Assembly: GCA_943788135.1 (NCBI GenBank)
Contig: CALSPC010000003.1
Location: 620,001 to 684,000 of the forward strand
Reading direction: 5' to 3'
Length of the DNA stretch: 64,000 bases
Origin: an uncultured Paracoccaceae bacterium
GTDB taxonomy: Bacteria; Bacteroidota; Bacteroidia; Flavobacteriales; Flavobacteriaceae
This document shows, piece by piece, positions 24,384 to 62,282 of the stretch. Position numbers and translations under genes: made by a program. Position 1 is the first letter of the stretch. Each line of letters begins with the position of its first letter. Below the pieces are notes generated by a model. The model was not told where the DNA came from and ran no database searches. It saw nothing but the letters and a program-made list of their open reading frames with translations.

Positions 24384-24438
24384 TTCGTTTGTAAATATTT
24401 GTAGTCGTTTGTAATTGATTAAATAAATTGTATATTTA
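24384..24438 (+). promoter_or_regulatory. Promoter with 20-bp-period direct repeats (zinc-ribbon gene)
   Basis: Two CGTTTGTAA half-sites start at 24386 and 24406, exactly 20 bp apart. The second supplies the -33 box TTTG at 24408-24411. After 19 nt comes TATATTTA at 24431-24438, one base off TAnnTTTG. The half-site is close to the LytTR operator pattern [TA][AC][CA]GTTN[AG][TG], but the second site deviates at its first two bases. The same layout recurs before the two small RNAs at 24861 and 25072. Confidence 0.55.
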
Positions 24439-24465
24439 TCTGTTGTAATCTCAAATTAAGCTCAA

Positions 24466-24813
24466 ATGAAAAAGTTATGCCCCGAATGTAATGATCCAAT
24501 TGTAGGACGAACCGATAAGAAGTTTTGTAGTGATGGCTGTAGAAATAGCTATAATAATCGAGTTAATAAAGATCAAAAAAACTTGATTCGAAACATTAAT
24601 AATCGATTGCGAAAAAACTGGCGTATTCTTGAGTCTATTAATCCACAACAAAAAACAAAAACCACTCGAGATAAACTTATTGCTGCGGGTTTTGATTTTA
24701 ATTACTTTACAAGTATTTATACCACAAAATCTGGAACTGTCTACTATTTTGTGTATGACCAAGGGTATTTACCTTTAGAAAATCAGTATTACGCCGTAGT
24801 TAAACGCGAATAG
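24466..24813 (+). CDS. Small zinc-ribbon protein
   Basis: Protein of 115 residues. The N terminus MKKLCPECNDPIVGRTDKKF then CSDGC forms a four-cysteine treble-clef or ribbon like DUF2116, followed by a basic helical stretch (NNRVNKDQKNLIRNINNRLRKNWR). The C-terminal half is a small alpha-beta region ending YYAVVKRE. I know of no defined function. A nucleic-acid role is suggested only by the ribbon and basic helix. Its promoter carries the same paired repeats as the two downstream small RNAs, so the three may form one regulon. Confidence 0.75.
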   Translation: MKKLCPECNDPIVGRTDKKFCSDGCRNSYNNRVNKDQKNLIRNINNRLRKNWRILESINPQQKTKTTRDKLIAAGFDFNYFTSIYTTKSGTVYYFVYDQGYLPLENQYYAVVKRE

Positions 24814-24860
24814 ATCCGTTTTTTAATCACAATTATTTCCGCTTATACACTCAAATCGAC

Positions 24861-24928
24861 CGTTTGTTACGTGATAAGATCGTTAGTTACATGAGGGTTG
24901 GGAAGGTTTTATAAGCTACATATATTTG
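24861..24928 (+). promoter_or_regulatory. Promoter and operator repeats of small RNA 1
   Basis: Two half-sites, CGTTTGTTAC at 24861 and CGTTAGTTAC at 24881, lie exactly 20 bp apart and share the following TGA at +12. The -33 TTG is at 24898-24900. A 20-nt spacer leads to TATATTTG at 24921-24928, an exact -7 box. The first site with its upstream bases (ACCGTTTGT) matches the LytTR consensus fully, and the second (ATCGTTAGT) misses one base. Confidence 0.65.
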
Positions 24929-24934
24929 ACTTAT

Positions 24935-25007
24935 GTAATTTAATATCTTACTTAAAAGTTAAATTGGTTAATTTTTGAAAACACCACATTCTAGTGGTGT
25001 TTTTTTT
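24935..25007 (+). ncRNA. Predicted small RNA 1
   Basis: A transcript of about 73 nt is expected from the TATATTTG promoter to the T-run at 25001-25007. No ORF of useful length or start codon with good context is present. The core at 24951-24987 is 36/37 identical to 25164-25200 in small RNA 2. It contains a small hairpin AAATT-GGTT-AATTT and ends in the terminator hairpin AAACACCAC/GTGGTGTTT (24979-25002). The exact 5' end is inferred from the promoter. Confidence 0.65.
24979..25007 (+). terminator. Terminator of small RNA 1
   Basis: A 9-bp stem AAACACCAC with GTGGTGTTT across the loop ATTCTA, then T residues to 25007. Confidence 0.9.
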
Positions 25008-25071
25008 GTTTTAAAACGTAAAAGATCATATCCTTTAGAAAATGAATTTCCGTTTAAGTATTTAATATTTA

Positions 25072-25139
25072 CGCTTATTACATGATTTGTCCGTTCATTA
25101 CTTTGGTATTGTGTGTACTGTAAAGATCGTATATATTTG
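25072..25139 (+). promoter_or_regulatory. Promoter and operator repeats of small RNA 2
   Basis: Half-sites CGCTTATTAC at 25072 and CGTTCATTAC at 25092 are again exactly 20 bp apart. The -33 TTG (25109-25111) and -7 TATATTTG (25132-25139) are separated by 20 nt, the same geometry as small RNA 1. The second half-site with flanks (TCCGTTCAT) fits the LytTR consensus fully; the first has GCT in place of GTT. The spacer sequence is unlike that of copy 1, so the promoter layout is kept while other bases have drifted. Confidence 0.65.
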
Positions 25140-25145
25140 TAGTGA

Positions 25146-25222
25146 CAATATTCTTATATATTGCTTAAAAGTTAAATTGGTTAATTTTGGAAAACACCAC
25201 GCTAGTGGTGTTTTTTTTTTTT
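25146..25222 (+). ncRNA. Predicted small RNA 2
   Basis: The second of two tandem small-RNA genes, about 77 nt, starting 211 bp after the first. The 37-nt core is nearly identical to copy 1. The 5' ~20 nt differ completely (compare 24935-24950 with 25146-25163), which could give the two RNAs different targets. It ends in AAACACCAC/GTGGTGTTT and 12 T residues. Confidence 0.65.
25192..25222 (+). terminator. Terminator of small RNA 2
   Basis: A 9-bp stem as in copy 1 with loop GCTA, followed by a T-run to 25222. Confidence 0.9.
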
Positions 25223-25292: not shown

Positions 25293-25994
25293 ATGAAAAC
25301 TATTAAATATACACTACTTTTAGTCATCTGTTTTGGGATCAAAGTTCAAGCACAAAACCAATCCGCTTTAGTGCCTCATTATAAGGCCTATTATAAACAG
25401 ATGCAACAGCAAGGCGATATTCAAGGGATTATAAATGCAATGACACATTTGGTAGTGTTAGAGCCAAATGTAAAAAGACAAGATACGTTAGCGGCTCTTT
25501 ATATGAATGAAGGAAAGTATATGCAAGCCTTAAATATTGTTGGAATAGAATTGCTAGATACAGACACCACATTAGCAACAGAAGTGAAAGCGGTTAGTTT
25601 AAAATCTCTGAACGAGCCTAAACGAGCTATTGAGCACTATGAAGTACTTTTCAAACAAAAACCTTCGGTATCTATTGCGTATGAACTTGCGGATTTAAAA
25701 ATTCAAACAGATGATTTAACAGGGGCTTCTTTAAATATAACTTATGGAATTGCAAATACGACAACGGACATGATGAAACCTTATTATGAAACTCAAACAC
25801 CATATCAAGTTCCTTTACTTGCAGGTTTTGTGTATTTAAAAGCGATTTCAAAATTTAGAGAGAATCCAGAAACAAATCACGATGCTGCGATTGCAATTTT
25901 AGAAGAAGCACTTCAATTAGCGCCTAATTTTAACATGGCCAATTTGGCCGTTAATGCCATACGAAATCAAAAAGAAACGCCAAAAACGGAATAG
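25293..25994 (+). CDS. Exported TPR-like protein
   Basis: Protein of 233 residues with a Sec signal peptide (MKTIKYTLLLVICFGIKVQAQ) and helical repeats that follow the tetratricopeptide pattern (AALYMNEGKYMQALNI; PKRAIEHYEVLFKQKPS; AIAILEEALQLAPNFNMA). It is probably periplasmic. TPR proteins serve as protein-interaction scaffolds and the partner is unknown. It is monocistronic, with its own -7 box and a strong terminator, and is convergent with the M13 peptidase. Confidence 0.75.
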   Translation: MKTIKYTLLLVICFGIKVQAQNQSALVPHYKAYYKQMQQQGDIQGIINAMTHLVVLEPNVKRQDTLAALYMNEGKYMQALNIVGIELLDTDTTLATEVKAVSLKSLNEPKRAIEHYEVLFKQKPSVSIAYELADLKIQTDDLTGASLNITYGIANTTTDMMKPYYETQTPYQVPLLAGFVYLKAISKFRENPETNHDAAIAILEEALQLAPNFNMANLAVNAIRNQKETPKTE

Positions 25995-61824: not shown

Positions 61825-62282
61825 TTAATACTCTAGAAGGCAAGACATCTGTGATTCTGATTTTTTTTAATCTCAATTTTTTTTGAAATCTCTCTCTTGG
61901 TTAATAGGAATTGAGTTTATAGAATAAGCCTTATTTCTGTATAATCTGTCCAGATTAATCGATTAAAATTCGGCAGGATTTTTTTTGTTTTTTCAAAAAA
62001 TCGTGTAGTTTTGAGAACAAAGGCCCCCAAATCTAAATCTTCACGACGCAATTTAACCGAAGTTTTAGATCTAATTTTTTGAAATATGTTTATAAACTAT
62101 AACAGTTTATACACATATGTGCAAAACATATTTTGCACATATCAGAAGTCCAATAGAGGGTCTTATTGTACTTCAAGGCTTTAAATATAAGTTTCTTGTA
62201 AATAAAATAAGATGCTACTATATAAAAGAAATAAACGCAATACTGCGGATATAAAGTAGTTGTGTACAATGTAAACCGACAA
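61825..62282. other. Gene-free leader of the insertion
   Basis: About 458 bp with no ORF. It holds the repeated segment at 62023-62043 (also found inverted at 797-817), a perfect 12-bp inverted repeat at 62115-62142 (ATATGTGCAAAA, CATA, TTTTGCACATAT) and the GTTGTGTACA core at 62259. Confidence 0.45.
62115..62142. repeat. Perfect 12-bp inverted repeat
   Basis: ATATGTGCAAAA, 4-nt spacer CATA, TTTTGCACATAT. It lies 140 bp before the cargo gene at 62283. There is no T-run. It is a possible operator or cruciform. Confidence 0.5.

Follow-up and report, generated by a model that had tools for sequence, protein, structure and literature searches.

Within the window (the whole stretch of 64,000 nucleotides of DNA analysed here), two short and nearly identical predicted transcription units lie in tandem downstream of a zinc-ribbon gene, each behind a pair of similar half-sites, which raises the question of what these units are, what would switch them on and which genes they would act upon. 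According to the original prediction, a LytTR-type regulator controls them as sibling RNAs with interchangeable 5' targeting ends. Using a combination of pattern counts, BLAST, covariance models, Pfam and Rfam scans and duplex calculations, we arrived at a revised proposal, which we regard as rather probable: a LytTR switch would act on cell-surface genes and on tandem small RNAs (sRNAs) that would pair antisense with their targets, the best candidates for which are the leaders of a dispersed element.

Two RNA promoters share an operator

The features of the locus are collected in Table 1. Reading of the sequence confirmed that paired half-sites 20 bp apart stand at both RNA promoters, and that RNA1 and RNA2 have in common the 37-nt stretch CTTAAAAGTTAAATTGGTTAATTTTKGAAAACACCAC (36/37 identical), followed by an identical terminator stem. 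The RNA operators end 7 bp before the -33 box, an arrangement also present in relatives, and the -7 box fits the TAnnTTTG element given for flavobacterial sigma-A in the available part of PMC9723704.

Table 1. Features of the RNA locus and of the leader element in the window (window coordinates).
Feature	Position	Strand	Remark
Repeat CGTTTGTAA-N11-CGTTTGTAA between ssb and the zinc-ribbon gene	24386..24415	.	Element distinct from the operator
Zinc-ribbon-like ORF, 115 aa (neighbour)	24466..24813	+	No Pfam match at 0.001
RNA1 operator, half-sites CGTTTGTTAC (24861-24870) and CGTTAGTTAC (24881-24890)	24861..24890	+	0 mismatches, 20-bp period
RNA1 promoter, -33 TTG (24898-24900), 20-nt spacer, -7 TATATTTG (24921-24928)	24898..24928	+	Read from the sequence
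RNA1, predicted, ~73 nt: 5' part GTAATTTAATATCTTACTTAAAAG, core, terminator	24935..25007	+	Start inferred from the -7 box
RNA1 core AAAAGTTAAATTGGTTAATTTT	24954..24975	+	Invariant in 30/30 aligned copies
RNA2 operator, half-sites CGCTTATTAC (25072-25081) and CGTTCATTAC (25092-25101)	25072..25101	+	1 mismatch, 20-bp period
RNA2 promoter, -33 TTG (25109-25111), 20-nt spacer, -7 TATATTTG (25132-25139)	25109..25139	+	Read from the sequence
RNA2, predicted, ~73 nt: 5' hairpin CAATAT..ATATTG, core, terminator	25146..25218	+	Start inferred
RNA2 core AAAAGTTAAATTGGTTAATTTT	25167..25188	+	Same core as RNA1
TPR-repeat protein gene (neighbour downstream of the RNAs)	25293..25994	+	Follows the RNAs in the mapped gene order
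Leader element member, CCCAAATCTAAATCTTCA subtype, upstream of an ORF	62025..62100	+	Leader model E=0.0013

The prediction had placed three promoters under this operator, and the third, that of the zinc-ribbon gene, does not belong with the other two. Its half-sites CGTTTGTAAA (24386-24395) and CGTTTGTAAT (24406-24415) each depart from the pattern at two positions, giving four mismatches in total, and the repeat is not among the operator matches of its own genome at up to three mismatches. Of the 18 genomes with the zinc-ribbon gene in the stretch read, 11 were reported to have the CGTTTGTAA repeat found there; it can also be seen in the sequence of G017, though the automated comparison reported another alignment, and it was not found in G010, NP987 and G086. 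Because the repeat differs from the operator and persists in G015, a genome devoid of operators, RNAs and linked LytTR gene, the zinc-ribbon promoter was rejected as a third member of the regulon.

The RNAs form a family with an invariant core

BLAST searches showed that the RNA array recurs in genomes of the same genus, the gene order being, where mapped, ssb, zinc-ribbon gene, RNAs and TPR gene. When a covariance model was applied to 18 genomes of the genus, it located 26 RNA copies, spread over 13 genomes (two or three copies in nine, one in four), and none in G011, G013, G015, G016 and G017. For alignment, 30 copies were gathered with at most two mismatches in a 20-nt core, four source loci coming from an exact core search, and two incomplete copies at contig ends were set aside (a cut copy in G012 and one with a degenerate core, G002:C43). 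The 22-nt core is invariant across all 30 aligned copies, and the terminator stem covaries, 4 of its 16 predicted pairs being changed on both sides. The core could fold as a weak hairpin with an AUUGG loop, the pairs of which never vary and so speak neither for nor against that hairpin. Paired half-sites (at most two mismatches each) stand 20 bp apart upstream of 29 of the 30 copies; core and 20-bp-period repeat are thus conserved together in relatives, as the prediction implied.

The 5' ends were predicted to be unrelated, which applies to several siblings with differing hairpin stems, but not to RNA1, the 5' end of which is nearly identical in the 12 genus genomes read. Hairpins make up the 5' ends of RNA2 in the source genome (G000), of the third copies in G002, G003, G007 and G010 and of the second copies in G004 and G008; the single RNA copies of NP987 and ERR598978 have a 5' end unlike that of RNA1.

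Two genomes of a second genus, G086 and G307, carry two RNA copies each, with operators. These four copies, which stand outside the 30-copy alignment, differ at one end of the core (two have AATTTG, two TAAAG). In this second genus the RNA unit lies ahead of a large sensor-like gene (L262 3123-6421 and L264 2313-3791), behind which G086 has a TonB-receptor-plug gene. When the covariance model was run on a sample of 299 genomes of the family, 36 of them gave a match at E<=0.01. The true carriers among the loci inspected were G000, G010, G086 and G307. The matches in the 32 other genomes (E 3e-5 to 0.01) were discarded: none of 26 loci inspected had an operator pair or the core (at most two mismatches), and many resemble terminators of unrelated origin. 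Among named genome contigs, a scan returned 14 stretches; one is titled Saprospiraceae, and the titles of the others are Flavobacteriaceae or Formosa sp., in some cases Hel1_33_131.

The RNAs matched no Rfam family above the gathering threshold, the only matches in the window being two tRNAs. Phage records gave no match to the RNA array or to the leader described below, and viral contigs none to the core pattern. What the alignments and scans establish computationally is an RNA family and its conservation; as read from the sequence, it is a multicopy sRNA family, the predicted transcripts of which are paralogues, each with its own promoter, a conserved core and an intrinsic terminator.

The operator also stands ahead of cell-surface genes

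In the source genome, the pattern CGTTNRTTAC-N10-CGTTNRTTAC occurs in four places at no more than one mismatch, namely the two RNA promoters, G000:C4:24600-24649 and G000:C7:255466-255515. At up to three mismatches it gave 7 matches versus 11 for the reversed control, meaning that the operator signal resides in the near-perfect sites. In the 18 genus genomes at up to two mismatches, we counted 100 matches, spread over 15 genomes, against 16 for the reversed pattern, the sums including the RNA promoters and counting overlapping sites separately. G013 and G011 have operators, and no RNA was found in them by the covariance model. The operator family, too, is established computationally, and we consider it very likely that the RNA family and its operator regulon are genuine.

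Among the products of the genes inspected behind operators are T9SS-sorted proteins, a Peptidase_S74 protein and an OmpA/TSP3 protein, the gene of which is followed by a Glycos_transf_4 gene; further proteins have VGIGTTxP-like N termini and no Pfam match, and look fibre-like by eye. As a separate observation, the operator pair at G000:C7:255466-255515 (L086, L106) has no ORF of at least 60 aa within 350 nt, and ORF-less counterparts occur in G009, G011 and G012 (L181, L183, L187); they possibly head another operator-controlled RNA.

A LytTR regulator is linked to the operators in several genomes

In G013, Pfam identified a LytTR response regulator and a His_kinase protein near an operator-bearing OmpA gene. 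Orthologues of this regulator lie in the same surroundings in G010 and G004, where the kinases were assigned solely from their N termini or from context. The kinase gene lies between the LytTR regulator and the operator-bearing genes. At a cut-off of 1e-30, the linked regulator had matches in 8 of the 18 genus genomes, five of full length (G013, G006, G010, G000, G004) and three partial (G012, G003, G001); the matches of G012, G003, G006 and G001 sit in rearranged surroundings. Linkage to operator-bearing genes was seen in G004, G006, G010 and G013. In G012, G003 and G006 the regulator gene, whole or partial, also has the 5' part of an OmpA-like gene as its neighbour (L258, L259, L254, L260). 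In G307, the LytTR regulator stands directly upstream of the operator-RNA unit: a divergent kinase gene is followed, on the other strand, by the LytTR regulator, the operator and the RNA, behind which comes a gene whose start marks it as a relative of that of the Y_Y_Y protein of G010. A comparison of 14 of the 22 LytTR proteins covered proteins from outside the linked group.

Ten of the 18 genomes gave no match to the linked regulator at 1e-30. Six of them (G002, G005, G007, G008, G009, G014) have operators and RNAs, and G011 has operators; incomplete assemblies may explain part of the missing matches. In G015, G016 and G017 the RNAs, the operators and the linked regulator are absent together, in a comparison uncorrected for the kinship of these three genomes. 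G015 and G017 retain intact neighbouring genes; in G016 the zinc-ribbon gene was not found.

The statement that the half-sites fit the LytTR operator pattern holds up: the half-sites fit the LytTR consensus, and the spacing agrees with the literature. The operator consists of CGTTnRTTAC pairs with a 20-bp period just upstream of the promoter, in the manner of LytTR-type direct repeats. Such repeats are described, in the available part of PMC6193735, as lying just upstream of the promoter and mostly 12 bp apart, sometimes 11 or 13.

The six genomes with operators and RNAs and no linked LytTR match would also suit another regulator, such as the 934-aa Y_Y_Y protein, which has a LuxR-type GerE match just under the Pfam cut-off. 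Its gene adjoins the LytTR gene, and in G086 and G307 the second RNA copy is followed by a relative of that gene. That such a protein rather than LytTR reads the operator is in our opinion unlikely, considering that the half-sites and their period fit the direct repeats of LytTR systems (PMC6193735, same part) and that two LytTR proteins were found in the source genome, one of which is the linked regulator (G000:C5:270-1028). We return to the LytTR protein as the likely regulator of the operator, to which it would bind for activation. The prediction that a LytTR regulator controls the sibling RNAs gains from the matching operators kept with the RNAs and from the LytTR gene linked to them in G004, G006, G010, G013 and G307, whereas its extension to the zinc-ribbon gene falls away. 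The twin RNAs probably belong to a multicopy sRNA family under LytTR control.

Antisense complementarity to a dispersed leader element

Core matches elsewhere in the genus led us to a repeated promoter-leader element. It begins its leader part, TTAGACCTCAAATCTGATTCTTCATTTTAACCAATTCAAC..AGTAAGATATTA, after a TAcATTTA box that resembles a -7 element, and its pattern TTAGACCTCAAATCTGATTCTTCA..AACCAATTCAAC..AGTAAGATATT is dispersed and genus-specific. BLAST gave leader matches in 14 of the 18 genus genomes (none in G012, G015, G016 and G017), some of these rows being the antisense of the RNA itself and the other match of G005 being weak. When four leader loci were compared with Rfam, the sole match was unrelated and below threshold. 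Over the 700 nt examined, 45 of 50 rows have an ORF behind the element, which starts between +106 and +654. A scan of 41 proteins encoded downstream of leaders identified, among others, SMODS nucleotidyltransferase, N6 methylase, HTH proteins, sulfatase, tRNA synthetase and four T9SS-sorted proteins; the genes behind the element are varied and mostly accessory-looking, and not defence genes alone.

Several individual loci may be mentioned. Cargo-like genes follow the element, which is why an integron attC site was considered, an identity that we do not claim for it. Both in its TTAGACCTCAAATCTGATTCTTCA form and as a CCCAAGTCTAAATCTTCA subtype, it heads many accessory-looking genes (window 62025-62100, L059, L074, L032-L039, L089-L091, L104). 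At L061 389-1267, a SMODS (CD-NTase) gene lies directly behind a leader, and the next ORF looks by eye like a SLATT-like membrane protein. In G009 and G013 the element precedes a gene that resembles those for tryptophanyl-tRNA synthetase, in one case with a Pfam tRNA-synt_1b match, and in G000 a leader subtype lies upstream of a gene that looks by eye like gltX (L311).

It is the second half of the leader to which the RNAs are antisense, with a similarity that spans RNA1 from its start to the core. RNAduplex was applied to 40 of 43 leaders (the other three being in genomes without RNA), each against the RNAs of its own genome, using dinucleotide shuffles of the best sibling alone: z was below -3 in 29 leaders and weaker in 11, values that are not independent since the leaders are homologous, and the lowest energy was -40.5 kcal/mol. 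This computed complementarity also appeared with a leader model for which 37 leaders, but no sRNA, had been used, and the best two window matches of which were the antisense strands of RNA1 and RNA2 (E values 1.1e-4 and 3.1e-4), ahead of the true leader at 62025. The leader model matched 4 of the 299 family genomes, three that carry the RNA (G000, G010, G307) and one, G334, with no RNA match; G086 carries the RNA, yet gave no leader-model match.

Two results count against the leaders as targets. First, the best-conserved part of the leader lies outside the stretch matched by the RNAs. Second, out of 38 leaders no more than 5 had their best match in an RNA of the same genome, which indicates no genome-specific co-evolution. 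The antisense similarity would equally follow from an old inverted copy, and may reflect shared ancestry of antisense and leader. It may then be asked whether the RNAs act in trans at all, or are tandem-duplicated short terminated transcripts or sponges, the similarity being the trace of an old inverted leader copy. The tandem arrays, a similarity running from the start of RNA1 to the core and the lack of co-evolution are in keeping with such by-products. We nevertheless judge this quite improbable, for the core is invariant in 30 copies, the terminator shows compensatory changes and a second locus has the same operator in G086 and G307, a degree of constraint that would not be expected of by-products.

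We prefer to see the RNAs as likely acting by antisense pairing, presumably as repressors, and the leader element as, on sequence grounds, the best candidate for their main target. As the pairing site is far from most start codons, the effect would be exerted at the level of the leader, by attenuation or decay. The notion that the 5' ends are the targeting ends is only partly borne out: the near-fixed 5' end of RNA1 is, together with the core, antisense to the dispersed leader family. On the other side, the core is the most conserved part, several siblings have hairpins as 5' ends, and own RNAs match own leaders no better than foreign ones.

Start-codon sites as a second candidate target

Sites resembling TTAACCAATTTAAC were seen by eye just before the ATG of several genes, and one operator-controlled gene (G000:C4) has a candidate initiation site at -13.9 kcal/mol. 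This suggests another mode of action, in which the core would be a seed that blocks translation at initiation regions and the leader match a by-product, as the FopS sRNAs of Bacteroides are described as blocking translation at such regions in the available part of PMC11697453. Out of 416 initiation regions, 14 reached -12 kcal/mol, whereas 40 shuffles gave 3.3 on average and 9 at most, and the reversed core gave 8, an excess that is biased in that many of these regions were fetched for the motif. Genome-wide, TTAACCAATTTAAC is not enriched (61 matches versus 70 for the reversed control), most operator-controlled genes have no strong core-pairing site, and the long match between RNA and leader would go unexplained; we find this mode of action rather unlikely. 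The starts of the SusC-like gene at the LytTR locus (G010, G086, G000) pair weakly with the core, at -6.1 to -8.6 kcal/mol. Feedback pairing on the LytTR mRNA was dropped, as it was seen only in G004 and, far upstream, in G010.

Proposed mechanism

From these lines of evidence, we propose that a two-component system made up of a LytS-type kinase and a LytTR response regulator would act through the tandem 20-bp-period operators upstream of the -33 box, and would thereby turn on, simultaneously, cell-surface genes and one to three tandem copies of a ~73-nt RNA. Each predicted RNA would comprise a 5' arm or hairpin and the A+U-rich, conserved core AAAAGUUAAAUUGGUUAAUUUU, would end in an intrinsic terminator and would most likely act in trans, through antisense pairing by the core and the 5' arm. 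The best candidate targets would be the 5' leaders of the TTAGACCTCAAATCTGATTCTTCA..AACCAATTCAAC..AGTAAGATATT element ahead of accessory genes, and translation-initiation regions with TTAACCAATTTAAC may be a second class. The accessory genes headed by leaders include SMODS nucleotidyltransferase and type I methylase genes and, by eye, a DNA methyltransferase gene and toxin-antitoxin-like pairs. A further-reaching version, in which the LytTR-switched sibling RNAs silence the leader element in trans, so that surface genes go up and much of the accessory genome goes down together, is put forward tentatively and remains rather doubtful to us.

Relation to known systems

The response regulator RgaR is a LytTR protein. 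In the available parts of the respective papers, RgaR activates the sRNA gene spoZ (SpoZ) of Clostridioides difficile via VirR-type direct repeats, with a critical G at -51 and at -72 (PMC10602386), and AgrA, also a LytTR protein, activates RNAIII in Staphylococcus aureus (PMC4227749). As proposed here, a response regulator activates a regulatory RNA in both cases via direct repeats just upstream of the promoter; as far as described in those parts, the two cases concern other phyla and a single RNA gene each, whereas the present RNAs form an sRNA array in Bacteroidota with a 20-bp operator period.

The FopS sRNAs, 14 paralogues that repress susC translation in Bacteroides thetaiotaomicron (PMC11697453, available part), are likewise sRNAs of Bacteroidota that share a conserved pairing region, antisense repression being demonstrated for them and proposed here. 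Going by their description in that part, the FopS RNAs are set apart by being bound by RbpB and by pairing through their 5' ends with susC start regions, whereas the twin RNAs lie in tandem behind a paired operator, have their core after a 5' arm and are complementary to leaders. Rfp18 of Flavobacterium psychrophilum is also a flavobacterial sRNA tied to secreted proteins and differs, by its description, in having several stem-loops, LytTR being absent from the available main text (PMC9723704).

A search of the literature, as far as its sources were available, for LytTR with sRNA in Flavobacteria found nothing relevant. The prediction's claim that no description is known has therefore to be narrowed: within the sources available, LytTR-type activation of a regulatory RNA via direct repeats is in print, and none was found for Flavobacteria. 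Since AgrA-RNAIII, RgaR-SpoZ and FopS are published, the kind of system is known, while the family and the combination appear to be new within the literature searched.

Significance

Marine Flavobacteriia are important degraders of algal blooms, and to our knowledge their trans-acting sRNAs have hardly been studied. The locus offers a probable regulator that can be named, operators that are compact and countable, and concrete candidate targets, so that each of these elements is testable within one clade. If the leaders are indeed the targets, a single RNA could govern many exchanged genes with nothing but the leader in common.
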